Assembly (NCBI GenBank): GCA_003388555.1
Contig: QQVD01000043.1
Location: 124,001 to 188,000, forward strand
Direction: 5' to 3'
DNA length: 64,000 nt
Source of the DNA: Acidobacteriota bacterium
Lineage (GTDB): Bacteria; Acidobacteriota; Thermoanaerobaculia; Multivoradales; Multivoraceae
In this document: piece by piece, positions 5,046 through 36,120 of the stretch
Numbering within the stretch: position 1 is the first letter of the stretch
Layout: every line of letters starts with the position of its first letter
Program-made: the position numbers and the translations under genes
The notes under the pieces: generated by a model
Databases searched by the model: none
Told to the model about the DNA's origin: nothing
What the model saw: only the letters and a program-made list of their open reading frames with translations

Positions 5046-7793
5046 GTGAGCGAGAGCCGTATCCCGAAGGACCTGCGACGCAGGCCGAACACGCTCCTGC
5101 GGGTCGCTGTGCTCGGCGCCCTCGTCACCCTTATCGTCGTCGGTGAGGCTCAGTTGCTCGCCAATCCTCGAGTCATCGACCTCAACCCGACCGAGGAGCC
5201 CTTCAGCCCGTTCCTCGCGTACGACGGCGATGGCGTCGTCTATCGTGGTCTCTACTACTTCCTCGGTAACGACGGGCGGCACGGCGAGGAGCTGTGGGTG
5301 AGCGACGGCACGGAGGAGGGCACGCGCCTGCTCAGGGACCTCGATCCGGGCCCGGTCGGCTCCGCGCCGCGTGACTTCCTCGTCGCCGACGGGCTGCTCT
5401 TCTTCAGCGCGACGGACTCGGCCCATGGGCGTGAGCTCTGGGTGACCGACGGCACGCCCGAGAACACGGAGCGGATCACCGACCTGGCGCCCGGCGCGGC
5501 CTCGAGCTCACCCTCGGACCTCGCCTGGGACGGCGGTCTGCTCTTCTTCGCCGCCACGACCCTGGCGAAGGGTCGCGAGCTGGCGGTGTGGGACGGCTCC
5601 GAGGCGACCGTGCTCGAGCTGCAGCCGGGCGTTGAGGGTGTCGATCCCGTCGGCATGACGGTCGGACCGGCGCGGGGAGTCTTCTTCAGTGCCTATCTCG
5701 AGGGGGTCGGGCGCGAGCTCTTCTTCAGCAACGGCACCTCCGGCGGTACCGACCTGGTCGCCGACATCTTCTTCGGCGAGAACGACTCCGACCCGGAGGA
5801 GATCACCCTGGTCTCCGACGAGATCGTGTTCTCGGCACGCGACGAGAGCCTCGGTCGCGAGCTGGTGAGATACCGCCCGTCGACGGGTGTCCTCACCGTG
5901 GAAGATCTCCGCGACGGCGCCGGTGGCTCGTTCCCGAAGCGCATTACACCGTTCAGCGACGTGCAGGTCTTCTTCATCGCCAACGACGGCTCCGCCGGCG
6001 AGGAGCTCTGGGACTACCTGCGCGTCACCGGCGCCATCGAGCGACGCACCGACATCGACGGTGGGGCTGCCAATGGAGTGGGCGGCTTCCCCCAGGTGCT
6101 GGGGAACAAGGTCTGTTTCTCGGGATGGCAACCCGCCACGGGATGGGAGCCCTGGTGCTACGACGTGCTCGCTGGAGCGAGACCCCTGGGTGATCTCGAG
6201 TCGGGAACGGACGGCTCCAGCCCGAGCTCGTATCTGGCCGTCGACGGCTGGCTCTACTTCCACGCCTACAGCGGTCCGACCTGGGGCAAACTGTGGCGCA
6301 GCGACGGCACCGCAGCCGGCACCGAGGTCATGAACGACTTCGATCCCGATTCGACTCTCGACAGCGGGCGGCCACTGGCCTGGGTCGACGAGACGCTCCT
6401 CGTCCAGCTGTCCGGAGTCGACGGGCGTACCTACGCCCTTGCCGAGACCTCGAGGCCGAGAGTCTGGAGCATGCTGTCGGAGGAGGTCCTGTCGTCGTCG
6501 TTGCCCAGGTACATGGCTTCCGACGGAGACGGCGGAGTCCGCTTCACGGCATATCGGCCGCACGAGGGCAACGAGCCGTGGACCGCCGATGGCGAGAGTG
6601 CTCGGCTCATCGAGGACCTCGTGCCTGGCGAGCAGTCCTCTTGGCCACGCACCTACCTGGTGCACCGAGACCGTACGGCGATGGTCGGCGTCGAGCAGGG
6701 ATCGATCGCCGGCGAGCCCTATGTGTGGGATGGCGCATCGGTGCAGCAGATCAACCTGTCGGCTGGCGATTCCGAGCCCTGGGGGCTCGCCGCGGTGGGC
6801 GATCGGGTTCTGACCGCCTCCTCGGAGTTCGACGAGGAAGCGCTCTGGGCGATCGATCCCGTGACGTCGACCACCGAACAACTCACCACGGACCGTCCCG
6901 GGCGATTCGTCGGTGCAGGAGCTCTCGGGCTCTTCGCGCAGGGCTTCGAGCTGTGGAAGACCGACGGCACCGCGGTCGGAACGGAGCTGTTGGCGACCGC
7001 GCCGGAGCGGTTTCGCGAGCTCGCTGTGCTCACCGAGCCGACGGAGACGAGCGCGCTCTCGGCCTTGCTGACCACCGAGACGTTCCCGGAGGACCTGATC
7101 GAGCTCTGGCACACCGACGGCACCACGACGGGCACGCAGATGCTTCTCGGGAGCTTCGCTGCTCTGGGGTTCGCCGAGGACCTGCTGGTGCCGCCCTGGT
7201 TCGCGGTGTCCGGCGGCCTGGGGCTCCTGGCGGCCCGGCTCGAGGGCGCCACCCACCGCGAGCTCTTCGTCACCGACGGCACGGTGGCGGGCACCCAGCA
7301 GATCACTCAGCGTGCCAGCGACGACTTCGTGCCCGAAGAGCTCTTCGTGATCGGCGCGGTCGACGGCGGTTGGATCTACCAGGACTGGCACCAAGAGTCC
7401 GGGCCGGAGATCTGGTTCACGGACGGGACGATCACCGAGATCGTCGAGCTGGTGCCCGGCGTGCTCGGCTCGCGCCCGGTCGGCCTCGACGACGATGCTC
7501 CGTACCGCGGCGCGACGATCGACGGCGAGCTGGTCTTCTCGGCGTACACGGAGGATCGCGGCTACGAGCTGTGGCGCAGCGACGGCACCGCGTCCGGCAC
7601 GGTGCCGCTGCGCGAGCTGCGCCCGGGGGAGGCCGGCGAGCCGCTCGACCTGATCGCCTCGGGCGGCCGGGCCTGGGCGGCGGGACACGGGCCGGACGGA
7701 GAGGGACGCGAGCTCGTGGTCTACGAGCTGGCACTCTTCGAGGACGGATTCGAGTCCGGCGACACGAACGCGTGGAGCTCGGTCGTACCTTGA
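5046..7793 (+). CDS. ELWxxDGT-repeat secreted protein with C-terminal ESGDT tag
   Basis: A 915-residue exported protein made almost entirely of about 16 units of 45-60 residues built around ELWxxDGTxxGT followed by LxDLxPG. This repeat family is predicted to form beta-propellers or related all-beta folds; function unknown. The GTG at 5046 is chosen because AGGAGG lies at 5031-5036 with 9-nt spacing and the reading then begins with basic residues and a hydrophobic signal segment (about 17-38). The open frame extends upstream to 4806, but that part lacks a start signal. The protein ends LFEDGFESGDTNAWSSVVP-stop, the tag shared with three other proteins here. The stop lies 16 nt from that of the convergent gene. 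Confidence 0.88.
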   Translation: MSESRIPKDLRRRPNTLLRVAVLGALVTLIVVGEAQLLANPRVIDLNPTEEPFSPFLAYDGDGVVYRGLYYFLGNDGRHGEELWVSDGTEEGTRLLRDLDPGPVGSAPRDFLVADGLLFFSATDSAHGRELWVTDGTPENTERITDLAPGAASSSPSDLAWDGGLLFFAATTLAKGRELAVWDGSEATVLELQPGVEGVDPVGMTVGPARGVFFSAYLEGVGRELFFSNGTSGGTDLVADIFFGENDSDPEEITLVSDEIVFSARDESLGRELVRYRPSTGVLTVEDLRDGAGGSFPKRITPFSDVQVFFIANDGSAGEELWDYLRVTGAIERRTDIDGGAANGVGGFPQVLGNKVCFSGWQPATGWEPWCYDVLAGARPLGDLESGTDGSSPSSYLAVDGWLYFHAYSGPTWGKLWRSDGTAAGTEVMNDFDPDSTLDSGRPLAWVDETLLVQLSGVDGRTYALAETSRPRVWSMLSEEVLSSSLPRYMASDGDGGVRFTAYRPHEGNEPWTADGESARLIEDLVPGEQSSWPRTYLVHRDRTAMVGVEQGSIAGEPYVWDGASVQQINLSAGDSEPWGLAAVGDRVLTASSEFDEEALWAIDPVTSTTEQLTTDRPGRFVGAGALGLFAQGFELWKTDGTAVGTELLATAPERFRELAVLTEPTETSALSALLTTETFPEDLIELWHTDGTTTGTQMLLGSFAALGFAEDLLVPPWFAVSGGLGLLAARLEGATHRELFVTDGTVAGTQQITQRASDDFVPEELFVIGAVDGGWIYQDWHQESGPEIWFTDGTITEIVELVPGVLGSRPVGLDDDAPYRGATIDGELVFSAYTEDRGYELWRSDGTASGTVPLRELRPGEAGEPLDLIASGGRAWAAGHGPDGEGRELVVYELALFEDGFESGDTNAWSSVVP

Positions 7794-11137: not shown

Positions 11138-11550
11138 CGCCGCCGAGGCGAGCTCGTCGAGCCGAGCCGCACGACGTGAGCTCGGATTTCTCCCGAGGTC
11201 AGCGTCGTAACGCCGATCGTCTGGAGGCACCTAAGGTGTGGTTGCAGCCCACCCCTCAGGTGTCTCGTGAGTGTCCAGACTCGACGCCGAGCTCGAGCCG
11301 TAGGCGAAGAGCGCCGCCGAGGCGAGCTTGTCGAGCCGAGCCGCACGACGTGAGCTCGGATTTCTCCCGAGGTCAGCGTCGTAACGCCGATCGTCTGGAG
11401 GCACCTAAGGGGTGGTCACAGACCACCCCGAGGTGTGACAGGACCAGACTCGACGCCGAGCTCGAGCCGTAGGCGAAGAGCGAGCCGCCGATCGTCTGGA
11501 GGCACCTAAGGGGTGGTCACAGACCACCCCGAGGTGTCTCCAGACTCGAA
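11138..11550. repeat. Array of palindromic repeats, three copies
   Basis: Two direct repeats of about 170 bp (11138-11311 and 11312-11481), nearly identical over their first 100 bp, are followed by a truncated third copy from 11482 that runs into the end of the FG-GAP gene. Each contains a long palindrome: copy 3 has arms 11495-11518 and 11522-11544 around a 3-nt loop, copy 2 starts its arm at 11394, and copy 1 at 11220 is more degenerate. In copy 3 the palindrome is coding, for the tag ESGDTSGWSVTTP plus stop. Copy 2 still reads HTSGWSVTTP-stop on the minus strand after a small insertion. The array separates two convergent genes, so it may act as a bidirectional terminator. Confidence 0.85.
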
Positions 11551-12825
11551 CCCGTCCGCGAACAGCACGAGGAGCGTCGAGTTGAAGGCGTACACCCGGC
11601 CATGACCCTCGCCGGTGGGTCCTTTCGGATCGGAGACCAGGATTCCGGACTGCGGATCGATGCGGACCACGCGGCCGTAGTCGGCCTCCGCTTCGGGATC
11701 GATGACCAGTGCCGTGGCACGCAGGCGGGCGTACTCCGACCAGCTCCCGAAGCGGCACGAGTCACCGCTGCGTCGGAAGAGCGCGGCGTCGCCCTGTTCG
11801 TTGAGATTGAGTCGCTGCACTCTCCAGCCACCGAGCACCAGGTTCGGTCCCGCCAGGTCGATGTCGAAGCCCCAGTAGTCCTCCGACAGAGCGCCCTCCG
11901 GCACCAGCACCTGCTCCTGGAACCAGAAGTCCTCCGGGCTCACGCCGTACGCGGCGAAGCCTCCGGTGTCGGGAGTGGGAGGGATGAAGCCCTGGTTGAA
12001 CGAGGTCATGCCGATCACCAGGCAGACGTCGTCGATCGCCACCGAGGCGCCGAAGGAGACGCCGGACTGCAGTGGGTTGCCGTCTTCGATCTGCTGCCTC
12101 AGGGTCCAGCCGAAGTCGCGACGAAAGACCCGCACCAGACCGTCACTGTTGTTCCAAGTGGGATCGCCGAAGGCCGCCCAGGTGCCGTGCAGGGCGACGT
12201 TTCTGCCGTGGCTCGAGGAGGGATGGGTCGTGTCCCACGAGTCGATCAGGAACCAGTCGTTTCCGACCTTCTCGTACATCCGGCTCGCGCCGCCGCCGCC
12301 CGAGGAGTAGCGCGAGATGCCGACAGCCAACACATCGATCGTGATGCCTCGGTCGCCGCCCTCGTCTCCCCAGACCGACGCGGCGAGCGCTGTGGGCTCC
12401 TGGCCTGTGCCGCTGTCGACGACCACGGTCTGCGGCGGGAAGAGTCGTTGCGCACGGATCTCCCAGGACTGAGTCGACGGCGGGTTCGCGCCCACCTGGG
12501 TGATCGCGGCGTAGAAGATCGTCAGACCGTGCACCGCGACGACGGGCGCCAGCTCTTCGGCTGTCGGCGTGAGCGTCGGGCCGGCCTGCCACGAGCCCGA
12601 AGAGAGGTTGAAGGTGAAGGTCTCGATCGTCGCGTTCTCGGGCGAGACGACCGCGGAGAAGTACCCGTCGACGTCCATGGCAGACCCGAAGCTCGCGAAG
12701 TCGGGACCCGACAGGACCTGATCCTGCGACAAGGTGTCGAAGGCGAGCGCCGGAACGGCGGAGAGAGCCGCGGCCGCCAGGGCCAGCGATCTCGCGTGGC
12801 GGAGGAGGCTGAGGCGGTGAGACAT
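11506..12825 (-). CDS. Secreted FG-GAP-like beta-propeller protein with C-terminal ESGDT tag
   Basis: A 439-residue protein. ATG at 12825 has GGAGG 7 nt upstream and is followed by a clear signal peptide (MSHRLSLLRHARSLALAAAA). The mature part contains FG-GAP/integrin-alpha-like blades, for example AAFGDPTWNNSDGLVRVF and FGASVAIDDVCLVIG, and is probably a seven-bladed propeller for binding or adhesion outside the cell. No catalytic motif is seen. It ends LFADGFESGDTSGWSVTTP-stop. The last 13 codons and the TAG lie inside a near-perfect palindrome continuous with the adjoining repeat array. The upstream neighbour (permease) ends 135 bp away in the same direction, so co-transcription is possible but not obvious. 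Confidence 0.85.
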   Translation of the reverse strand: MSHRLSLLRHARSLALAAAALSAVPALAFDTLSQDQVLSGPDFASFGSAMDVDGYFSAVVSPENATIETFTFNLSSGSWQAGPTLTPTAEELAPVVAVHGLTIFYAAITQVGANPPSTQSWEIRAQRLFPPQTVVVDSGTGQEPTALAASVWGDEGGDRGITIDVLAVGISRYSSGGGGASRMYEKVGNDWFLIDSWDTTHPSSSHGRNVALHGTWAAFGDPTWNNSDGLVRVFRRDFGWTLRQQIEDGNPLQSGVSFGASVAIDDVCLVIGMTSFNQGFIPPTPDTGGFAAYGVSPEDFWFQEQVLVPEGALSEDYWGFDIDLAGPNLVLGGWRVQRLNLNEQGDAALFRRSGDSCRFGSWSEYARLRATALVIDPEAEADYGRVVRIDPQSGILVSDPKGPTGEGHGRVYAFNSTLLVLFADGFESGDTSGWSVTTP

Positions 12826-22440: not shown

Positions 22441-24090
22441 ATGAACCAGGACGCGGCCACCCGATCGCCCGCCGAGACCGAAAAGACTCTGCCCGCCTGG
22501 AGCTATGTGCCGGCGGACACGTCGCAGCCGATCCTCGACACCACGGTCGGCGGTGTGCTCCGCGACGCCGCGCGGCGCTTCCCCGACAATACGGCGCTGG
22601 TGGAGGGCGTGCCCGACGCGGCGGCGCGGCGGCGCTGGACGTACACCGAGCTGCTCGCCGACTCGGAGCGGGTCGCCAGGGCGCTCGCGACGCGCTTCGC
22701 CAAGGGGGAGAGGGTGGCGGTCTGGGCGCCCAACATCCCCGAGTGGGTTCTGCTCGAGTTCGGCGCCGGCCTCGCTGGGATCGTGCTGGTGACCGTGAAC
22801 CCGGCCTACCAGCCCAAGGAGCTGCGCTACGTGCTCGAGCAGTCGCGCGCCGCCGGCCTCTTCTACCTGCCGGAGTTCCGCGGCAACCCGATGCAGCGCT
22901 CGGTCGAGGCCGTGCGCGGCGACCTGCCCGAGCTGCGCGAAGTGATCTCCTTCGCCGACTGGGAGGCGTTCCTGGCCTCCGCCGCGGAGGACACCGAGCT
23001 GCCCGAGGTGTCGCCCGACGATCCGGTGCAGATCCAGTACACCAGCGGCACCACCGGCTTCCCCAAGGGGGCGCTGCTGCACCACCGCGGCATCACCAAC
23101 AACGCCCGCCTGTGCAGCGGCCGGCTCGACGTGCAGCCGGGCGACGTCTACGTCAACCCGATGCCGCTCTTCCACACCGGCGGCTGCGTGCTCGGCGTGC
23201 TCGGGCCGACCCAGTACGGCGCCACCCACGTGTGCATGATCCAGTTCGATCCCGGGCTGATGCTCGACCTGCTCGAGAGCGAAGGCGGCACCCACATGCT
23301 CGGGGTGCCGACGATGCTGATCGCCTGCATGGAGCATCCCACCTTCGGCCAGCGCAGGCTCGACGCACTGCGCGGCGTCTGCTCGGGCGGCGCCACGGTG
23401 CCGGCCGAGCTGGTGCGACGCATCGAGTCACAGCTCGGCGTCTGGTTCTCGATCGTCTACGGCCAGACCGAGTCGTCGCCGGCGATCACCCTGATGCGCC
23501 CGGACGACTCGGACGAGGACAAGGCGAACACCCTCGGGCCGGCGCTGCCGCAGACCGAGATGAAGGTGATCGATCCGACCACCGGCGCGATCGTCCGCAC
23601 CGGAGAGCAGGGTGAGCTGTGCACCCGCGGCTACCTGGTGATGCTCGAGTACTTCGAGATGCCGGAGCGGACCGCCGAGACGATCGACGAGGACGGCTGG
23701 CTGCACACCGGAGACCTGGTGACCATGGACTCGCGCGGCTACACGGTGATCACCGGACGGCTCAAGGACATGATCATCCGCGGCGGCGAGAACATCTATC
23801 CGCGCGAGATCGAGGAGGTGCTCTTCCAGCACCCCAAGGTCGCCGACGTCGCGGTGGTCGGCCTGCCCGATCCGAAGTGGGGCGAGATCGTCGCCGCCTT
23901 CGTGCGCGATGCCGACCCCGAGTCCCCGGCCGACGACCTCGAGCTGCACGACTACCTGCGGGCACACCTGGCGCCGACCAAGACCCCGAAGCTCTGGTAC
24001 CACGTGCGCGAGTTCCCGCTCACCGGCTCCGGCAAGGTGAAGAAGTTCGCCCTGCGCGAGATGTGGGAGAAGGGCGAGCTGGACGCATAG
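22441..24090 (+). CDS. AMP-binding acyl-CoA ligase (FadD-like)
   Basis: A 549-residue member of the ANL superfamily that activates a carboxylic acid to acyl-AMP and then acyl-CoA. The P-loop-like YTSGTTGFPKG starts near residue 200, the adenylate-binding YGQTESSP near 340, and the hinge region GRLKDMIIRGGENIYPREIE near 439. The conserved C-terminal lysine lies in TGSGKVKKF (about 530). The overall match is to medium/long-chain fatty acyl-CoA synthetases; chain length cannot be read. ATG at 22441 follows GGAGACGGGAG. No other beta-oxidation genes are nearby. It ends 101 bp before a convergent gene, with a palindromic repeat between. Confidence 0.93.
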   Translation: MNQDAATRSPAETEKTLPAWSYVPADTSQPILDTTVGGVLRDAARRFPDNTALVEGVPDAAARRRWTYTELLADSERVARALATRFAKGERVAVWAPNIPEWVLLEFGAGLAGIVLVTVNPAYQPKELRYVLEQSRAAGLFYLPEFRGNPMQRSVEAVRGDLPELREVISFADWEAFLASAAEDTELPEVSPDDPVQIQYTSGTTGFPKGALLHHRGITNNARLCSGRLDVQPGDVYVNPMPLFHTGGCVLGVLGPTQYGATHVCMIQFDPGLMLDLLESEGGTHMLGVPTMLIACMEHPTFGQRRLDALRGVCSGGATVPAELVRRIESQLGVWFSIVYGQTESSPAITLMRPDDSDEDKANTLGPALPQTEMKVIDPTTGAIVRTGEQGELCTRGYLVMLEYFEMPERTAETIDEDGWLHTGDLVTMDSRGYTVITGRLKDMIIRGGENIYPREIEEVLFQHPKVADVAVVGLPDPKWGEIVAAFVRDADPESPADDLELHDYLRAHLAPTKTPKLWYHVREFPLTGSGKVKKFALREMWEKGELDA

Positions 24091-24094
24091 CCTC

Positions 24095-24243
24095 TTACGG
24101 AACGGCCTGTGACCACGCCGAGGTGTCTCCAGACTCCACGCCGAGCGCGAGCCGTCAGGCGCGGTGCGAGCCGCGGATCGTCTGGAGGCCCCTAAGGGGT
24201 GGTCTGTGACCACGCCGAGGTGTCTCCAGACTCCACGCCGTCG
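24095..24243. repeat. Second palindromic repeat array with an orphan tag copy
   Basis: Two copies of the same repeat family as at 11.1-11.5 kb. The right copy has palindrome arms 24181-24204 and 24208-24230 around a TGT loop and encodes the C-terminus of the adjoining gene. The left copy keeps only one good arm (24111-24133). On the minus strand, 24139 down to 24095 still reads VESGDTSAWSQAVP followed by TAA, an orphan tag with its own stop but no gene body. Flanking DNA (about 24134-24160) matches that of the first array. It again lies between convergent genes (acyl-CoA ligase and the tagged protein). Confidence 0.8.
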
Positions 24244-25265
24244 GTGAACAAGAAGTCGCTCGGCACGAAGGCGAAGTCATCGGCCAGGAAGACGGCGCCG
24301 GCGGTTCCCTGCCCCGGGTTCAGGGCGACGAAGATGGCGACGCTCTGAGCTCCATCGGGGGGGAAGGCGGCGACGGCGAACGGCACGAAGAGACCGCTGG
24401 CGAAGGTCTCCCAGGCGTTGAGCTGGGTGTTGCTGGCGATGAGCCCCGGTCCGCTCAGCAGGTTGCCTGCGCAAGCGGTGTCGTCGAAGAAGAGAAACGA
24501 GAGGATGGTGTTGTCGAGTGCCGTCTCGGCCTTCATCCGCACCAACGGCAGGTAGGCGACCGAGGCCTGATGGTCGGCGAGCAGCACGCACTGCGACAGG
24601 AAGGCCGAGCCGTCGCCGGCGACGACGGCGCGCGCGGCGCCGGGCGGCGTGCTGAGGCCGTCGGCGACCCGCGTCCAGGTGCCGCTGTTCTGCGTCCAGC
24701 CGGCCAGGTTGGTGGTGAAATGACCGTTGCTGATCAGGCTGCGGTCGAGGCGCACGGCGTCGAATCGGGTCTGTTCGCCACCGGCGCCGTTGGTGATGGC
24801 GAGGCGTACCCGGGCGCTGGCGGCGCCGCCGGCCGGCACGCCGATGGTGGTGTAGGTGAGGTTCCACTGCGCCGCGTCGGGGGTCTGGTACGGATCGCTC
24901 GCTGCCGCGAGCAGCGATCCACCGCAGGCGGCGGCGGAGAAGAGCTCGATCTCGACCTCGGAGAGGGAGCTGTGTCCGACGGTGATCACCCAAGCGCGCA
25001 GGGCGAGGTCGCTGCCCCCGGGAACTGAGGAGACGTCGACGCACTGGGTGAGCGCGGCGGTTCCGGCTCCCGCCGACGTCGTGCCGGCGGTGCCACCGGG
25101 GCCCGGGATGCCGTCACCGAGGTTGTGCACCCAGGCGCCGCTCTCCTGCGTCCATGAGGTGAGCTGGGCGGAGAAGTCGGGGTTGCGCAGCAGCGTCGCA
25201 TCGCCGGGGACGGCGGCGAGCTGGAGCAGGGTACAGGCGAGGACGGGGAGGAGCAGGCGTCGCAT
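24192..25265 (-). CDS. Secreted protein with duplicated beta-sandwich domain and ESGDT tag
   Basis: A 357-residue exported protein. A signal peptide (1-24) precedes two homologous domains, each opening LLRNPDFSAQLTSWTQESGAW (residues 25-45) or LISNGHFTTNLAGWTQNSGTW (about 177-197). They share later elements such as AALTQCVDV/AFLSQCVLL and are probably carbohydrate-binding-module-like beta-sandwiches of about 150 residues. Function is most likely binding rather than catalysis. The protein ends LFTDGVESGDTSAWSQTTP-stop, with the tag and TAG inside a palindrome. ATG at 25265 follows AAGGAGA. It lies 95 bp downstream of the protease operon in the same direction. Confidence 0.82.
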   Translation of the reverse strand: MRRLLLPVLACTLLQLAAVPGDATLLRNPDFSAQLTSWTQESGAWVHNLGDGIPGPGGTAGTTSAGAGTAALTQCVDVSSVPGGSDLALRAWVITVGHSSLSEVEIELFSAAACGGSLLAAASDPYQTPDAAQWNLTYTTIGVPAGGAASARVRLAITNGAGGEQTRFDAVRLDRSLISNGHFTTNLAGWTQNSGTWTRVADGLSTPPGAARAVVAGDGSAFLSQCVLLADHQASVAYLPLVRMKAETALDNTILSFLFFDDTACAGNLLSGPGLIASNTQLNAWETFASGLFVPFAVAAFPPDGAQSVAIFVALNPGQGTAGAVFLADDFAFVPSDFLFTDGVESGDTSAWSQTTP

Positions 25266-28914: not shown

Positions 28915-31900
28915 ATGCTCCGCTTCTCCTCGCCCTTGACCGCCTCGGTTCTCTGTCTGGCACTGCTCGTCTCGAGCGGTCCGGCCGCTCACGCTGGTGA
29001 GCCGACCCCGGGCGTCGTCGGCGCCGCGAAGTCGGCCGAGCGCTCTGGCCGCATCGTGACCTTCGATGTGGTGCTCGAGCACCTGGGCGGTTCCGCCAGC
29101 ACGACGCTCGGCCTGACCGACGACCTCGATGTCGTCTTCGGCGAAGGGAACTACTCGCTCCTCGGTCCGCCGACGCTGTTCGACGATCCCGGGACGATCG
29201 TGCTCAACGCCGGGTTCGACGGCTCCAGCGACATCCAGATCATCGCCTCGGGCTCGCTCGCGGTCGGTGAGACCGCCGGTATCCGCTTCTCGGTCGAGAT
29301 CACGTCGGTGAGCAATCAGGGCTTCGGTCCCGGCATCTACTACAACCAGGCCACGGTGCAGAGCGACTCCGGGTCCGACCTCTCCGACAGCGGAACGGAT
29401 CCGGATGCGAACGGCAACGGCGACCCCGGCGATTCGGGTGAGGACGACCCGACGCTGGTCGATCTCACCGCCAGTCCGCGGATCGGCGTCGCCAAGGCGG
29501 CGACGCTGGCGGGCACCGAGGTGACGCTCGACTTCTACCTCGAGAACTTCGGCAACCGCTTTCTGCTCGACATCGAGCTAGCAGACGACCTCGATCAGGT
29601 GTTCGGCGCCGGCAACTACGTCGTCCTCTCGCCGCCGGCCCTGGTCGACGATCCCGGCACGATCGTCGTCAACGCCGGCTTCGACGGCAGTGCCGACAAG
29701 GCCCTGATCTCGAGCGGATCTCTCGCGATCGCCGACACCGCCCGCATCCGCGTCGTCGTCGACGTCACCGACGTGACCGATCAGGGCCTCGGCCTCGGCG
29801 TCTACTCGAACCAGGTGCAGGCGAACGCGCGCGGTCCGGCCGGCACGTTGACCAGCGACCTCTCGGATGCCGGCACCGAGCCCGATGCGAACGGCGACGG
29901 CGATCCCGAGGACCCGGGCGAGAACGACCCGACGATCTTCGTGATCGGTGAACAGCCGGTCCTGGGTGTCGCGAAGGACGTCACCGTGGTCGCCAGCACG
30001 GTCACGGTCGACCTCTACCTCGAAAACCTCGGCAACACGGCGCTCCAGGAGCTCTCGCTGGTCGACGACCTCGACGCGGTGTTCGGTGCCGGCAACTACT
30101 CGCTGACCGGCGCGCCAACGCTGGTCGACGACCCCGGCACGGTCGTCCTGAATCCTGGCTTCAACGGCTCGTCCGACCCTCAGCTGCTGGTGCCGGCCAG
30201 CTCGACCCTGGCGCTCGGCGACACGGCGCAGGTGCGCTTCACCGTCCGCGTGGTGCGCCGCACCGACCTCGGATTGGGAGCCGGCAACTACGTCAACCAG
30301 GCTCTGGCGGGAGCGCGGTCGGCGGCCGGCGCGGTGACGTCGGATCTCTCGGACGACGGCACCGATCCCGATCCCGACGGTGACGGCGATCCGGGCGAGC
30401 CTGGCGAGAACGACCCGACCGGCTTCACCATCGCCGAGATCCCGGTGCTCGGCGTCGCCAAGGAGGTCGAGGTGTTCGCGTTCACCGGCGCCTTCATCGA
30501 CGTCGGCGGGGTGAACCAGCTCGGCACTGGGCCGCGCGTCCGCATGACGCTCTACCTCGAGAATCTCGGCAACGTACCGCTCTCCGACCTGAGCCTGGTC
30601 GACGCGCTCGACCCGGTGTTCGGCGCCGGCAACTACGGCACGTTCGCGTCAGCCACCAACCCGACGGTGCTCTACGACGACGGCGGACTCAACGTCGACA
30701 CGAACTACAACGGGTCGACCGACACGAACCTGCTGGCCCCCGGCAGCACGCTGGGTGCGGGCGAGATCGCGGCGCTGCAGGTCGAGCTGCTGGTGACCAA
30801 CGTCACCGACCAGGGGTTCGGTCTGGGCGTCTACCGCAACCAGGCCACGGGGTCGGGACAGGGACCGTCGGGCGGCATGACCAGCGACCTCTCCGACGCC
30901 GGGGACGACGCCGACAGCGACGACGACGGCGATCCCGGCGGAGCGGGCGAGGACGACCCCACCGAGTTCTCCGTGGGGGCGCTGGTCGGCGCCGCCAAGA
31001 ACGCCACCGTGAACGCCAACGTCGTCACCTTCGATCTCTACCTCGAGAGTTTCGCGCAGCAGACGGCGACCGCGCTCTCGCTCACCGACGATCTCGACAG
31101 CGTCTTCGGTGAAGGCAACTACGCCATCACCTCGCCGCCGACACTGGTCGACGACCCAGGCTCGTTGGTCCTCAATCCCTCCTACGACGGCTCGGGCGAC
31201 GGCGAGCTGCTGGCGCCCGGCAGCGCGCTGGCGGCCGGCGACACGGCACAGATCAGCTTCGACGTCACCGTGCTGCAGCTGGTCAACGCCGGTCTCGACC
31301 CGAACGGCGGCCTCGGTCTCTACTCGAACCAGGCCGTGCTGCAGGGCTCGATCAACGGCCAGACGGTCTTCGACGCCTCCGAATCGGGCACCGATCCGGA
31401 CCCCGACGGCAACGGCGACCCGACGGAGCCCGACGAGAACGATGCGACGAGCTTCACCGTGAGCAGCGACGCGGTCGTCGGCGTCGCCAAGGACGTCGCG
31501 GTGGCGGGCGAGCAGGTGACGGTCGACCTGTACCTCAAGAACTTCGGCAGCGCCACCAGCACCGATCTGTCGCTGGTCGACGATCTCGACCAGGTGTTCG
31601 GTGCCGGCAACTACCTGGTCACCGGCGCTCCGTCGCTGATCGTCGACCCCGGCACCCTGGTCCTCAACGGCGCCTACGACGGATCGGCCGGCTCCGGTGA
31701 TCCCGAGATCCTCGCCGCGGGGAGCAGCCTCGCCGGCGGAGCGACCGCGCAGATCCAGTTCGTCGTCGACGTCACCGAAGTGACCGACCAGGGCATCGGC
31801 TTCGGCCTCTACGCCAATCAGGCGACGGTGGTCGGGGTCGATCCGAACGGCATGCAGGTCCGCGACCTCTCGGACTTCGGCAGCGATCCCGACGCCGACG

Positions 31901-34900
31901 GCGACGGCGATCCCTCCGACCCCGGCCTGGCCGATCCACCGGTGCCCGGCAACGACGATCCGACGCCGATCGTGCTCAGCGACGCGGCGCTCGGCGCTGC
32001 CCTGCACTCGTACGTGAGCGGCAGTCAGATCACCTTCGACTACGTCGTCGAGAATCTCGGCGAAGTGGCGGTGAGCAGTATCTCGGTGACCCAGAACCTC
32101 TTCACGGAGTTCGGCTTCGGCAACTACAGCGTGGTGCAGCAGCCGGCGGTGCTCGAAGGGCCGTCGGGCTTCGCGCCCGTCGCCGCCTTCGACGGCACCT
32201 TCGCCCAGACGCTGCTCGTCGGGCAGAGTCTGCCTGCCGGAGCGCGGGCCCGGGTGCGCTTCGTGATCAACGTCGACACGGTGACGATGGGCGGTTCCTA
32301 CTCGACGCAGTTCACCGTCAACGGCACCGATCCGCTCGGCAATCCGCTCACCGATCTGTCCGACAGCGGAACGGTCTCGGACCCCGACGGCGACGGCAAC
32401 CCGAACGAGGTGGGGGAGAACGACGAGACGCTGTCGATCCTCGGCGAGGAGTCGGCGCTCGGCGTCGCCAAGGACGTCTCGGTCGACGACAACGAGGCGA
32501 CGATCGACCTCTACCTCGAGAACCTCGGCAACGTGGTCCTCAGCGATCTGTCGCTGGTCGAGGACCTCGACGCGGTGTTCGGTGCCGGCAACTACACGCT
32601 CTCGGGCGCGCCGTCGTTCATCGACGACCCGGGCACCATCAACCTCGAGGGCGGCTTCGACGGCTCCGGCACGACGGCGGTGATCGCCGCCGGCAGCACC
32701 CTCGCCATCGGCGACACGGCGCAGATCCGCCTGGTCGTCCAGGTCACGACGCTGACCGACCGCGGCCTCGGCCTCGGCACCTACACCAACCAGGTGCTCG
32801 CCGGCGGTGTGGGGCCCAGCGGGACCGTGGCGCAGGACTTCTCCGACGACGGCACCGATCCCGATCCCAACGGCAACGGCAACCCGTCGGACGCCGGCGA
32901 AGGCGACGCCTCGATCTTCACCATCAGCGCGCCGCAGATCGCGGTGGCGAAGCGGGCCTCGGTCACCGGTCGCACGGTGACGCTGGACTACTTCCTCGCC
33001 AACCTCGGCGTCGGCGAGCTGGTCGACATCAGCCTCGTCGAGGACCTCGACGCCGTGTTCGGGCCAGTCAACTACGTGCTGCTCTCCGGTCCGGAGATGG
33101 TCTCGACGCCGCGCAACCTGGTGCTCAACGAGGGCTTCGACGGCAGCACCGACACCGACCTCCTCGATCCCGCCTCGACGCAGGCTGCCGCCGGCAGTGC
33201 CGAGCAGATCCGCATCGTCGTGCAGGTCACCAACGTCACCGATCAGGGTCTCGGCCTGGGCGTGTACGCGAACCAGGTCACCGCGTCGGCGAACGGTGCT
33301 GTGGGTGGCAGCACCAGCGACCTCTCCGACAACGGCACCAACCCGGACCCGAACGGCAACGGAGACCCCGGCGACGCCGGCGAGGACGACCCGACGCCGA
33401 TCGCGCTCCGCGGCTCGATCGGCGACCGGGTGTGGAACGACCTCGACGGCGACGGGGTGCAGGACGGCGGTGAGCCCGGCCTGAGCGGCGTCACGGTCTA
33501 TCTCGATCTCAACGGCAACTCCGTGCTCGACGCCGGTGAGCCGTCGGCGACCTCCAACGTGAGCGGTGCCTACGACATCACCAACGTCGCGGCCGGCTCG
33601 TACACCGTGCGGGTCGCGTCGGCGAGCGTGCCAGCGGGCTTCGTGCTCACCTCCGGCAACCTGCCGTTCGCCGAGACCCTGTTCGCCGGCGAGGACTTCG
33701 ATCTCGCCGACTTCGGCTACCAGCAGCAGGACGCGTCGATCGGCGACCGGGTGTGGAACGACCTCGACGGCGACGGCGTGCAGGACGGTGGAGAGCCGGG
33801 CCTGAGCGGCTTCACCGTCTACCTCGACCTCAACGGCAACGGGACGTTCGACGCCGGAGAGCCCGCGGACGTCTCGGACGGCAGCGGTGCCTACGATCTC
33901 ACCGACCTCCCCACCGGCACCTACACGGTGCGGGTGGATGCCTCGACCGTGCTTGCGGGCTTCGTGCTCACCGGCGGCAGCGATCCCCTGGTCGTGAATC
34001 TCGCCGCCGGCGAGGACTACGACCTCGCCGACTTCGGCTACCAGCAGCAGGACGCGTCGATCGGCGACTTCGTGTGGAACGACCTCGACGGCGACGGGGT
34101 GCAGGACCCCGGCGAACCGGGGCTCGCCGGCATCACGGTGTACCTCGACCTCAATGGCAACGGCACACCCGACGGTATCGAGCAGTGCAGCCCCGGTTGT
34201 TCTCCGTGCCAGTGCTTCTCGGACACCACCGACTCGAACGGTGCCTATGACATCACGGGCTTGGCAACCGGTAGCTACCCGGTGCGGGTCGACGCCTCGA
34301 CGGTGGCGGCCGGCTTCGTGCTCACCGGCGGCAGCGACCCGCTGGTCGTGAGCCTCGCCGCGGGCGAGGACTTCGACGACGCCGACTTCGGCTACCAGCA
34401 GCAGGCCGATCTCTCGATCACCAAGGTCGACGACGTCGATCCAGTGGCCGCCGGCACCAGCTACACCTACACCCTGACCGTGAGCAACGCTGGACCCGGC
34501 GCGGCGGAGGACGTCGAGATCACGGACGTGCTGGCGCCCGAGCTGACGCTGGTCGCCACCTCTGGCTGCGCCGAAGATCCCGGCGGAGTGCCCACTTGCA
34601 GCCTGGGGACGATCGCGGCGGGAGCCGACGCGACGGTGATGATCGAGGTGGCACTCGATCCGGGAGCCACCGGCACGGTGCTCAACACCGCGACGGTGAC
34701 CAGCTCGACCTTCGATCCCGACACGGCGAACAACGAGGCGAGCGAAGAGACCACGATCATGCCCGAGGCGGACCTCTCGGTGACCAAGAGCGACTCGGCC
34801 GACCCGATCGCGCCGGGCGACACGCTCGTCTACACGATCGAGGTGAGCAACGACGGTCCCTCCGACGCGATGAACGTCGTCGCCACCGACACGTTGCCCG

Positions 34901-36120
34901 CCGGAGTCACGCTCGTGGCGACCGTGGGCTGCGCCGAGGATCCGAACGGTGTGCCGACCTGCACCCTGGGCACCATCCCCGCCGGCGGTTCGGCGAGCTA
35001 CACCGTCGAGGTCACCGTCGACGCCGACACACCGAGCGGTACCCTGGTCAACACGGTGACCGTGAGCGCCGACACTGCCGACATGTCGCCGGGCGACAAC
35101 ACCGCCAGCGAGGAGACCGAGGTCGACGCGGAGGCTCCGACGGTGACCGACGTCGAGACGATCGGCGGCGAACTGGCAGAGTGCGGCGAGGTGAAGACCG
35201 GCGTCACCGCACTGGAGGTGACCTTCAGCGAGGAGGTCCGCGACCCGGCTGGGGATGTGGATCCCGACGACGTCACCAACCCGGCGAACTGGCTGCTGGT
35301 GGCTTCGGGCCCCGACAACGACTTCGCCACCGAGCTGTGCGGCCCGGTGATGGGCGACGACGTGGCGATCGTCATCGACGCGATCGACTACGCCGCAGCG
35401 TCGAGCGTGGCCACGCTCGAGCTCAACGGCGGCGAGCCGCTGGAGGACTCGCTCCACCGTCTGCTCGCCTGCGGCGACACGTCGATCCGCGACATCGCCG
35501 GCAACCGGCTGGACGGCGACGGCGACGGCCAGGGTGGCGACGACTTCGTGCGCACGTTCCGTGTGGCGCGAGAGAACCGGCTGCGGAACGGCGAATTCGA
35601 CTGCGACCTGGAGCCCTGGACGAGGACCAGCACGGTCCCGGAGGAGATCGTCTACAGCACCGACGACATCGACGACTCGTCGGTCAGCGGTTCGGCCGAC
35701 GTCACCAACCTGTCGAGCTCGACCGACTTCGTGCTGTCGCAGTGCGTGCCGCTGGCGCCGCGCCTGACCTGCTCGCTGGATGCCAACGTCAGGATCGACA
35801 CCGACCCCGGAACCTTGCTGGCGACGACGACCACCTGCCGGCACTACGCGAGCAGCGACTGTAGCGGCGCGGCGCTCTCGAGCTCGTCGATCGCGTCGTT
35901 GCTCGGCGACACCGGCGGCCTCTGGGCCGAGGTCGGAGTCGAGACGATGTCGCCCGCCGGCTCGTCGTCGACTTCCTGCAGCGTCAGGCTGAGGACCGCC
36001 GCGGCGCTGCCGTTCACCGCCAACGTCGACCGGGCGAGGCTGCTGTGCAGCGGAGACATGCTGTTCGCCGACGGCTTTGAATCTGGAGACACCTCGTCAT
36101 GGTCGGCGACCGTCCCTTGA
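28915..36120 (+). CDS. Giant modular surface protein with ESGDT C-terminal tag
   Basis: A 2401-residue exported protein. ATG at 28915 has GGAGG 6 nt upstream and starts a signal peptide (1-27); the longer open frame from 28744 lacks a start signal. Modules in order: nine repeats of about 150-170 residues (about 32-1499); three SdrD B-like domains (1501-1831), each opening SIGD[RF]VWNDLDGDGVQD; two DUF11-like domains (1832-2070, ADLSITK and ADLSVTK starts); an Ig-like/Big domain (2071-2218); and a C-terminal beta-sandwich (LRNGEFDCDLEPWTR) related to the domains of the gene at 24192-25265. It ends LFADGFESGDTSSWSATVP-stop. Many DxDxDG calcium-type loops are present. A role as a surface stalk or adhesin is inferred. 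Confidence 0.9.
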   Translation: MLRFSSPLTASVLCLALLVSSGPAAHAGEPTPGVVGAAKSAERSGRIVTFDVVLEHLGGSASTTLGLTDDLDVVFGEGNYSLLGPPTLFDDPGTIVLNAGFDGSSDIQIIASGSLAVGETAGIRFSVEITSVSNQGFGPGIYYNQATVQSDSGSDLSDSGTDPDANGNGDPGDSGEDDPTLVDLTASPRIGVAKAATLAGTEVTLDFYLENFGNRFLLDIELADDLDQVFGAGNYVVLSPPALVDDPGTIVVNAGFDGSADKALISSGSLAIADTARIRVVVDVTDVTDQGLGLGVYSNQVQANARGPAGTLTSDLSDAGTEPDANGDGDPEDPGENDPTIFVIGEQPVLGVAKDVTVVASTVTVDLYLENLGNTALQELSLVDDLDAVFGAGNYSLTGAPTLVDDPGTVVLNPGFNGSSDPQLLVPASSTLALGDTAQVRFTVRVVRRTDLGLGAGNYVNQALAGARSAAGAVTSDLSDDGTDPDPDGDGDPGEPGENDPTGFTIAEIPVLGVAKEVEVFAFTGAFIDVGGVNQLGTGPRVRMTLYLENLGNVPLSDLSLVDALDPVFGAGNYGTFASATNPTVLYDDGGLNVDTNYNGSTDTNLLAPGSTLGAGEIAALQVELLVTNVTDQGFGLGVYRNQATGSGQGPSGGMTSDLSDAGDDADSDDDGDPGGAGEDDPTEFSVGALVGAAKNATVNANVVTFDLYLESFAQQTATALSLTDDLDSVFGEGNYAITSPPTLVDDPGSLVLNPSYDGSGDGELLAPGSALAAGDTAQISFDVTVLQLVNAGLDPNGGLGLYSNQAVLQGSINGQTVFDASESGTDPDPDGNGDPTEPDENDATSFTVSSDAVVGVAKDVAVAGEQVTVDLYLKNFGSATSTDLSLVDDLDQVFGAGNYLVTGAPSLIVDPGTLVLNGAYDGSAGSGDPEILAAGSSLAGGATAQIQFVVDVTEVTDQGIGFGLYANQATVVGVDPNGMQVRDLSDFGSDPDADGDGDPSDPGLADPPVPGNDDPTPIVLSDAALGAALHSYVSGSQITFDYVVENLGEVAVSSISVTQNLFTEFGFGNYSVVQQPAVLEGPSGFAPVAAFDGTFAQTLLVGQSLPAGARARVRFVINVDTVTMGGSYSTQFTVNGTDPLGNPLTDLSDSGTVSDPDGDGNPNEVGENDETLSILGEESALGVAKDVSVDDNEATIDLYLENLGNVVLSDLSLVEDLDAVFGAGNYTLSGAPSFIDDPGTINLEGGFDGSGTTAVIAAGSTLAIGDTAQIRLVVQVTTLTDRGLGLGTYTNQVLAGGVGPSGTVAQDFSDDGTDPDPNGNGNPSDAGEGDASIFTISAPQIAVAKRASVTGRTVTLDYFLANLGVGELVDISLVEDLDAVFGPVNYVLLSGPEMVSTPRNLVLNEGFDGSTDTDLLDPASTQAAAGSAEQIRIVVQVTNVTDQGLGLGVYANQVTASANGAVGGSTSDLSDNGTNPDPNGNGDPGDAGEDDPTPIALRGSIGDRVWNDLDGDGVQDGGEPGLSGVTVYLDLNGNSVLDAGEPSATSNVSGAYDITNVAAGSYTVRVASASVPAGFVLTSGNLPFAETLFAGEDFDLADFGYQQQDASIGDRVWNDLDGDGVQDGGEPGLSGFTVYLDLNGNGTFDAGEPADVSDGSGAYDLTDLPTGTYTVRVDASTVLAGFVLTGGSDPLVVNLAAGEDYDLADFGYQQQDASIGDFVWNDLDGDGVQDPGEPGLAGITVYLDLNGNGTPDGIEQCSPGCSPCQCFSDTTDSNGAYDITGLATGSYPVRVDASTVAAGFVLTGGSDPLVVSLAAGEDFDDADFGYQQQADLSITKVDDVDPVAAGTSYTYTLTVSNAGPGAAEDVEITDVLAPELTLVATSGCAEDPGGVPTCSLGTIAAGADATVMIEVALDPGATGTVLNTATVTSSTFDPDTANNEASEETTIMPEADLSVTKSDSADPIAPGDTLVYTIEVSNDGPSDAMNVVATDTLPAGVTLVATVGCAEDPNGVPTCTLGTIPAGGSASYTVEVTVDADTPSGTLVNTVTVSADTADMSPGDNTASEETEVDAEAPTVTDVETIGGELAECGEVKTGVTALEVTFSEEVRDPAGDVDPDDVTNPANWLLVASGPDNDFATELCGPVMGDDVAIVIDAIDYAAASSVATLELNGGEPLEDSLHRLLACGDTSIRDIAGNRLDGDGDGQGGDDFVRTFRVARENRLRNGEFDCDLEPWTRTSTVPEEIVYSTDDIDDSSVSGSADVTNLSSSTDFVLSQCVPLAPRLTCSLDANVRIDTDPGTLLATTTTCRHYASSDCSGAALSSSSIASLLGDTGGLWAEVGVETMSPAGSSSTSCSVRLRTAAALPFTANVDRARLLCSGDMLFADGFESGDTSSWSATVP
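29005..33410 (+). repeat. Nine tandem protein repeats of about 480 bp
   Basis: Repeat units begin near 29005, 29482, 29961, 30445, 30981, 31468, 31985, 32452 and 32936. The unit starts LGVAKD, then YLENLGN, LSLVDDLDxVFGAGNY, VDDPGT, NxGFDGSxD, LAxGDTAQIRF, VTDQGLGLGVYxNQ, LSDxGTDPDxxGxGDP and GENDPT. Unit 4 has an insertion (about 20 residues near 30490) and unit 7 is the most divergent. The pattern combines a DUF11-like immunoglobulin fold with a calcium-type acidic loop at each junction. DNA identity between neighbours is only moderate, so the duplication is old. Confidence 0.85.

Follow-up and report, generated by a model that had tools for sequence, protein, structure and literature searches.

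What is the ending that four predicted secreted proteins have in common within a 64,000-nt window of an Acidobacteriota genome (assembly GCA_003388555.1, contig QQVD01000043.1; the window is the whole stretch of DNA analysed here), and what might it do for them? A sequence-only reading of the window had noticed the ending on the proteins that we call A to D (Table 1) and had likened its placement before the stop codon to that of sorting tags. We looked for this ending, hereafter the tag or tail, throughout the genome of the window (G000; 6.8 Mb in 74 contigs) and in its relatives; the evidence is comparative throughout. We favour, at a probability of about 65%, the reading that the tail serves one Acidobacteriota order as a C-terminal sorting signal for much of its extracellular proteome. 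An N-terminal signal peptide would bring the proteins into the periplasm, where the short soluble tail, approximately [IL]F-x-DGFESGD-x-S-x-W-S-x-x-x-P-stop, would be recognised from the periplasmic side. We infer that the recognition would be by an outer-membrane machine for export or attachment, a single reader with about a hundred substrates, and that it would not act via a membrane-embedded sortase.

A stop-anchored module on many different proteins

A six-frame search of G000 with the 22-residue tail as query (best 150 of 151 candidates scored) gave 147 tag matches, a number that puts the four endings in the window far beyond chance. All four window proteins have the tag in frame and immediately before the stop codon, as had been claimed for them, and they belong to a much larger set than the four. 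The surrounding DNA was read for each match: a stop codon lies within 31 codons after the tag at 136 of the 147 sites, and 125 of these 136 have an open frame of at least 150 residues. The stop-based counts given here rest on the 136 sites, among which are a few orphan fragments whose frames are very short. The last Trp is followed by exactly five residues and the stop in 111 of the 136, and Pro is the final residue in 102 of the 130 tags on open frames longer than 60 residues. The matches are thus anchored at the stop, and not scattered at the random positions that the sequence-only reading had named as speaking against its own idea. Of the remaining 11 matches, some are internal or N-terminal, some run into a contig end, and others lack a nearby stop for another reason. 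At four places in G000 (C11:164339, C11:178306, C11:118727 and C9:199872; loci L067, L068, L066 and L060) a tag-like motif stands right after a signal-peptide-like start, likely at the mature N-terminus.

The alignment of 89 tags, with rows picked from 116 clean tags in a way that favoured Pro endings, gave the consensus xxFxDGFESGDxSAWSxxxP; only the Trp and the final Pro are invariant in it, with F, D, F, E, G and S at 90% or more, so that the earlier list of invariant residues (L, F, D, G, E, S, G, D, T, W, S and P) was too long. Family scans found no Pfam or NCBIfam family covering the tag in the four window proteins, in line with the earlier statement that no curated family could be named for it; the C-terminal domain model of Type IX secretion had no match at the tag of the four, and is not among the 25 commonest families of the 125 tails taken from the open frames described above. 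No LPXTG motif is seen in the tags printed (sortase genes were not searched for). Text searches of the literature left the string DGFESGD unmatched, and shorter motif strings matched only unrelated titles among the matches listed; papers on choice-of-anchor domains held nothing on the tag by title and start of abstract, and nothing was found on Thermoanaerobaculia secretion with C-terminal signals, nor for IPTLxxWG, exosortase or XrtH.

The carriers are diverse. The 125 tagged tails (up to 350 residues each) match 54 Pfam families, of which 25 were listed; the leading ones are beta-helix with 12, the FG-GAP types, subtilase with 6 and the reprolysin types with 4. When 137 proteins encoded at the 147 sites were compared by BLAST, they fell into 17 clusters and 48 singletons. 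The tag is therefore not a part of one domain family, the other outcome that had been held to count against a sorting role. The four window proteins had been described as unrelated, which agrees with the many folds of the whole set but goes too far for the four themselves: C and D have their last beta-sandwich in common (24% in a three-row alignment), and A and D fall within the same loose BLAST cluster of eight. The module is a stop-anchored homology region on otherwise unrelated proteins, as in C-terminal sorting signals generally.

The constraint on the tag is at the protein level. Among 81 paralogue pairs the median identity was 35% for the body, 67% for the tag and 13% for the 15 residues preceding it (tag and linker were compared ungapped, and the 13% is a low estimate). 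In the 84 tags with the core pattern, FES has its Ser encoded by TCN in 59 cases and by AGY in 20; use of both Ser codon families is as expected of selection on the protein. The carriers are also enriched for signal-peptide-like starts, which a crude score assigned to 77 of 122 complete tagged frames of at least 200 residues and to 29 of 230 untagged open reading frames from the same DNA (signal-peptide and hydrophobicity scores, and the starts of the open frames, are rough); N-terminal signal peptides on the carriers are a trait of C-terminal sorting signals in general. A hydrophobic 11-mer within the last 25 residues occurs in 1 of 130 tagged proteins, so that the description of a sorting-tag-like placement with no hydrophobic helix stands.

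Most carriers are beta-rich by their Pfam matches, and the motif is like the opening strand of CBM_4_9 and other jelly-roll domains. Both points would suit a structural or binding module with no part in sorting; once secretion had taken its ordinary course, it would cap beta-rich folds or bind a ligand such as calcium or glycan. We consider this unlikely, though it deserves to be kept in mind, because the tag is found on unrelated folds with a variable linker ahead of it, and because its place is also used by a sorting signal (see below). In an AlphaFold2 model of the end of D, which is weak (three rows; mean pLDDT 44), the strands lie at residues 175-309 and the tag is low-confidence coil outside the last sandwich. 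Foldseek with this weak model returned phage tailspikes and CBM16 modules among its best matches, to which we gave little weight.

The slot after choice-of-anchor Q, and candidate partners

The best functional clue comes from the place that the tag occupies. No NCBIfam family is matched by more of the tails than choice_anch_Q (23 of 125); it was found in 7 of 10 scanned tails, one of them below cut-off, with the domain end 18-27 residues before the C-terminus. G000 has 23 choice_anch_Q places, and the 12 of these that were listed all have the tag on the same open frame. Three relatives in f5, one family of the order, each have a site where IPTL_CTERM comes after this domain within a single open frame (G048, contig C364; G042, C1; G027, C81). 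IPTL-CTERM, a known sorting signal, thus takes the same slot after the same domain, which suggests that the tag stands in a sorting-signal place; G000 itself has 5 IPTL_CTERM matches. Some other carriers are similar to LPXTG-anchored peptidases, or to peptidases that depend on rhombosortase or myxosortase (NCBIfam). Across the 38 relatives outside the sister genus g2, the counts of tag and choice_anch_Q are correlated (Spearman 0.61, kinship ignored). Following choice-of-anchor Q at loci L316, L318, L320 and L322 (G035, G048, G042 and G027, respectively) there recurs a C-terminal domain, about 117 residues long, that ends F-x-T-hydrophobic...CP or CN; it is possibly another C-terminal module.

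The abundance of the tag is specific to a clade. In a table of 59 relatives (G000 excluded; best 150 candidates per genome at most, and with rough E-values, as the profile is short), 35 have at least one tag match at E 0.01, and 28, spread over eight of nine families, have at least 19. The ninth family, f5, has 0-9 per genome, and the tag is also sparse in parts of family f3. It is absent from all 21 genomes of g2, and from G035, G042 and G059. Among 396 genomes sampled from the phylum, 20 have a match at E 0.001; ten of the 20 have at least 22 matches, nine of these being from the window's order (G000 included) and one, G418, from its class, and the other ten have 1-2. Of 20 named genomes, five are tag-rich (P_S1_bin.14, 136 matches; OFTM27, 93; Co_bin.310, 149; FeB_10, 70; and the genome of locus L211, 114) and the remaining 15 have 1-5 matches. 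Three pairs with identical places and scores (G432/G026, G447/G002 and G448/G043) were treated as the same genomes. A pattern scan of named genomes gave at least 120 matches; among the matches listed, those labelled Acidobacteriota were 55 C-terminal, 5 internal and 1 cut off, those labelled Deltaproteobacteria 7 C-terminal, those from other phyla 3 C-terminal and 16 internal, those from uncultured organisms 3 C-terminal, and those with titles not shown 27 C-terminal and 3 internal. The tag-bearing order would appear to be the one around Thermoanaerobaculales, and the loss of the tag in g2 was probably one event. By eye, no shared ending that might substitute for the tag was seen among 37 signal-peptide-like proteins within 400 kb of the g2 genome G010.

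Could the tail be a substrate of exosortase H (TIGR04177) or of another membrane-embedded sortase? NCBIfam detects exosortase H in the two genomes scanned for it (G000, 105.9 bits, and G002, 105.6 bits; cut-off 86), with an XrtH-associated membrane protein beside it that is above cut-off in G024 and below it in G002 (32.9 bits; cut-off 35). The exosortase family PF09721 is matched in 24 of 28 tag-rich and in 5 of 31 other relatives. This co-occurrence arises mostly because g2 lacks both tag and enzyme; with g2 removed, the comparison is 24 of 28 against 5 of 10. Tag and enzyme dissociate both ways. G025 (97 tags), G040 (81) and G054 (24) gave no exosortase match even with an order-specific profile, which picked up a fragment in G038 and weak matches in G033, G046 and G056; conversely, G035 and G042 have an exosortase and no tag. 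At least two IPTL_CTERM matches were found in 28 of 29 genomes with exosortase, and fewer in 28 of 30 without; the presence of the enzyme is accounted for by IPTL_CTERM and not by the tag. XrtH acts on IPTL-CTERM, which fits this co-occurrence across genomes. Exosortase H was rejected as the partner of the tag, and with 129 of 130 tails free of a hydrophobic 11-mer we regard a membrane-embedded sortase of any kind as extremely improbable.

Recognition of the tail by a known secretion system of these genomes, for example one like the Type II system, is also improbable, though less so. It would fit the presence across relatives of a T2SS-like secretin (the weaker of two secretin classes, adjoining GspE- and GspG-like genes in G010), and the resemblance of some carriers to rhombosortase-dependent or myxosortase-dependent peptidases. 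This secretin class is, however, kept in the tag-null genus g2 (its identity was checked in one g2 genome), and T2SSK was uninformative, as its matches were weak and 7 of 14 controls were also positive, Bacillus subtilis among them. In the single G000 example that was checked, the stronger secretin class is PilQ, within a PilM-containing operon; the class is missing from g2 genomes (L291, L301). SprA of the Type IX system was detected in 0 of 60 genomes, but in 0 of 14 controls either. The Type II, Type IX and pilus markers supplied no partner for the tag, and none of the neighbours of the single tag of G067 looked like a candidate when inspected by eye, without a family scan.

Several of these results weigh against the tail as a sorting signal. 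The co-occurring protease or secretion gene that the sequence-only reading had proposed to test for did not appear: no such gene or other reader co-distributed with the tag was found among exosortase, the Type II markers and SprA, and the T2SS-like secretin is present across relatives with tag-null genomes included. The genus g2 is also without choice_anch_Q, exosortase matches and the PilQ-class secretin; lacking several surface functions together, it indicates no single partner. By the crude scores, 45 of the 122 tagged proteins are without a signal peptide, and 20 of 86 tagged signal-peptide proteins have a further hydrophobic stretch. A few tag copies are at the N-terminus or inside proteins. 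Swap sites for IPTL_CTERM number only three, and other ends follow at 17 of the 20 choice_anch_Q sites read outside G000; three of the 17 leave the stretch that was read, and none has the tag within the up to 160 residues printed. G051 has 42 choice_anch_Q domains and 5 tags, and the ten sites read there (L306-L315) end in other domains.

DNA around the tags, and the origin of the tail

Some tags are embedded in repetitive DNA, as are those of B and C (Table 1). For 18 of the 136 tags in G000, the DNA just downstream can pair with the tag itself in a constant register about the stop (at least 10 of 12 bases), where about 1.1 would be expected from swapped downstream regions; the 18 comprise 16 genes, B and C of the window included, and two orphan copies. 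The sequence of the downstream arm of the palindrome varies with that of the local tag, as in CCGGGAACAC / GTGTTCCCGG at C8:178370. A tag-like copy lies within 400 nt downstream of 14 of 134 tags, compared to 5 in the upstream control, at least two of which are orphans that see their parent tag. Tandem Repeats Finder placed arrays at 14 of 136 tags and at none of 139 other open reading frames (from the first 60 of 93 fetched stretches); the period is 93-111 nt in 13 arrays and 174 nt in that of B, and 12 of the 14 start before the end of the stop codon. Tag-derived repeats form the end of contigs C2, C6, C7, C31 and C74 and the beginning of C40 and C32; because contigs break in these repeats, array lengths are lower bounds. 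REP/BIME elements are short palindromes dispersed between the genes of a whole genome; the repeat of B has 34 matches in G000, mostly at tag genes (best 40 of 233 candidates scored).

Table 1. Positions of the tagged proteins, their tags and tag-derived DNA within the 64,000-nt window (stop codons follow the tags directly), and of exosortase H in G000
Feature	Position	Strand	Remarks
Protein A, ELWxxDGT repeats, tagged	5046..7793	+	TIGR04534, E 3.4e-114; start set at signal-peptide-like start, longest open frame from 4806
Tag of A, LFEDGFESGDTNAWSSVVP	7734..7790	+	stop 7791-7793
Tandem array of tag-derived repeats directly downstream of B	11138..11491	-	period 174, 2.1 copies
Imperfect palindrome: B tag codons, stop and downstream DNA	11494..11545	-	11/12 outer pairs, inner stem of 9
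Protein B, FG-GAP_2 repeat, tagged	11506..12825	-	start at MSHRL, longest open frame from 12933
Tag of B, VLFADGFESGDTSGWSVTTP	11509..11568	-	stop 11506-11508
Orphan out-of-frame second copy of the tag of C, ALGVESGDTSAWSQAVP	24098..24148	-	DNA duplication of the tag of C
Imperfect palindrome: C tag codons, stop and downstream DNA	24180..24231	-	10/12 outer pairs
Protein C, two beta-sandwich-like halves, tagged	24192..25265	-	
Tag of C, FLFTDGVESGDTSAWSQTTP	24195..24260	-	stop 24192-24194
Protein D, DUF11 and SdrD_B modules, tagged	28915..36120	+	start set at signal-peptide-like start, longest open frame from 28744
Tag of D, MLFADGFESGDTSSWSATVP	36055..36117	+	stop 36118-36120
Exosortase H gene	G000 C2:205622-206053		L231; also L232, L233

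These counts could be taken to mean that the tail is present only because a palindromic repeat expanding at gene ends happens to be translated, and that it has little function in the protein. We hold this to be very unlikely, as most G000 tags have no palindrome; outside G000 there was 1 palindrome and no downstream copy among 92 C-terminal tags, and in G002 1 of 17 tags was palindromic. The use of both Ser codon families, and the position of the tags in frame on signal-peptide proteins, argue in the same direction. In our reading, the palindromes and arrays are secondary: tag DNA would have seeded an expansion specific to this lineage, perhaps through template switching and slippage. Within the window, palindromes and arrays of tag-derived DNA take up 11138-11545 and 24089-24240; a separate 321-nt tandem repeat (2.4 copies, 33415-34174) lies in the part of D that matches SdrD_B-like domains.

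As to where the tail came from, internal copies of the motif in other phyla look like the start of jelly-roll domains, and the motif is similar to MAM and CBM domains; from these two likenesses we infer an opening strand that has come to stand by itself as the tag. Of 10 internal copies scanned, one (L171) has its motif covered by a PF02018 CBM_4_9 match, which at 24.5 bits stays below the cut-off of 25.9. The whole CBM_4_9-like domain, of about 130 residues, is absent after the tag, given the stop five residues past the Trp. Probably the tail began as the first strand of a CBM_4_9-like jelly-roll domain and became detached from it. At L272 (G410, contig C14), in another family of the phylum, an internal tag-like motif, GLFADGFESGNTSAWSVTVP, is followed by 200 further residues, and may be an intermediate between a jelly-roll start and the tag. 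The sequence-only reading had mentioned neither such jelly-roll-like openings, nor IPTL-CTERM in the slot of the tag, nor the palindromes and arrays.

The likeness to the start of jelly-roll domains might also be taken to mark a neutral remnant of truncated domains, copied by gene fusion. Such a remnant is hard to credit: the tag is better conserved than the bodies that carry it, keeps a fixed distance to the stop, and is abundant in eight families of the order. Returning to the tail as a sorting signal, we offer a tentative and rather doubtful suggestion for the docking step: the tail might be strand-donated to a cell-surface receptor whose jelly-roll is incomplete, by which about a hundred proteins would be exported or held, in a system not yet described; the strand donation is pure conjecture on our part.

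Significance, and comparison with known systems

If the tail is a sorting signal, an environmental order uses one label to address its surface proteins, up to about a hundred or more in each genome, and does so with a helix-free signal outside the Bacteroidota. The tag would then allow prediction of extracellular proteins in uncultured species. Its uneven distribution, rich in most families and absent from g2, makes the partner findable by comparison of proteomes.

The Type IX C-terminal domains of Bacteroidota are the nearest analogue in logic, being soluble C-terminal signals on proteases, adhesins and beta-helix proteins; for Hbp35, it is reported that the last 22 residues alone were absolutely required for secretion and attachment of green fluorescent protein (PMC11969387). 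They differ from the tag in being folded beta domains of 40-82 residues with other motifs, and the search for Type IX genes gave 0 here, with its controls silent too. MYXO-CTERM with myxosortase and GlyGly-CTERM with rhombosortase are similar in that one label is on many different exported proteins, clade-specific and many-to-one; each is described as tripartite with a transmembrane helix and a basic end (PMC11980579 and PMC3237569, respectively). The two need a membrane helix, which the tag does not have. The jelly-rolls of CBM_4_9, CBM16 and MAM-like type have an opening strand with an FExGxxxxW-like motif, whereas the tag stops five residues after the Trp. At the DNA level, the bacterial constant-unit tandem repeats of Subirana and Messeguer (PMC8161180) are like the G000 arrays in having a near-constant unit with a sequence that varies between loci; they differ in length, with units of 52 or 20-21 nt compared to 93-111 nt (one of 174), and the G000 arrays sit at the coding end of tag genes.

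The closest system by position is IPTLxxWG-CTERM (TIGR04174) with exosortase H (TIGR04177): it is C-terminal, occurs many times per genome, and comes after choice-of-anchor Q in relatives from this order. The hydrophobic stretch and the basic end of IPTL-CTERM are both missing from the tag, which is far commoner in G000 (147 against 5 matches) and occurs without the enzyme. The tag thus stands where relatives keep a known sorting label, yet it resembles no such label, and it may be a label of a new kind.

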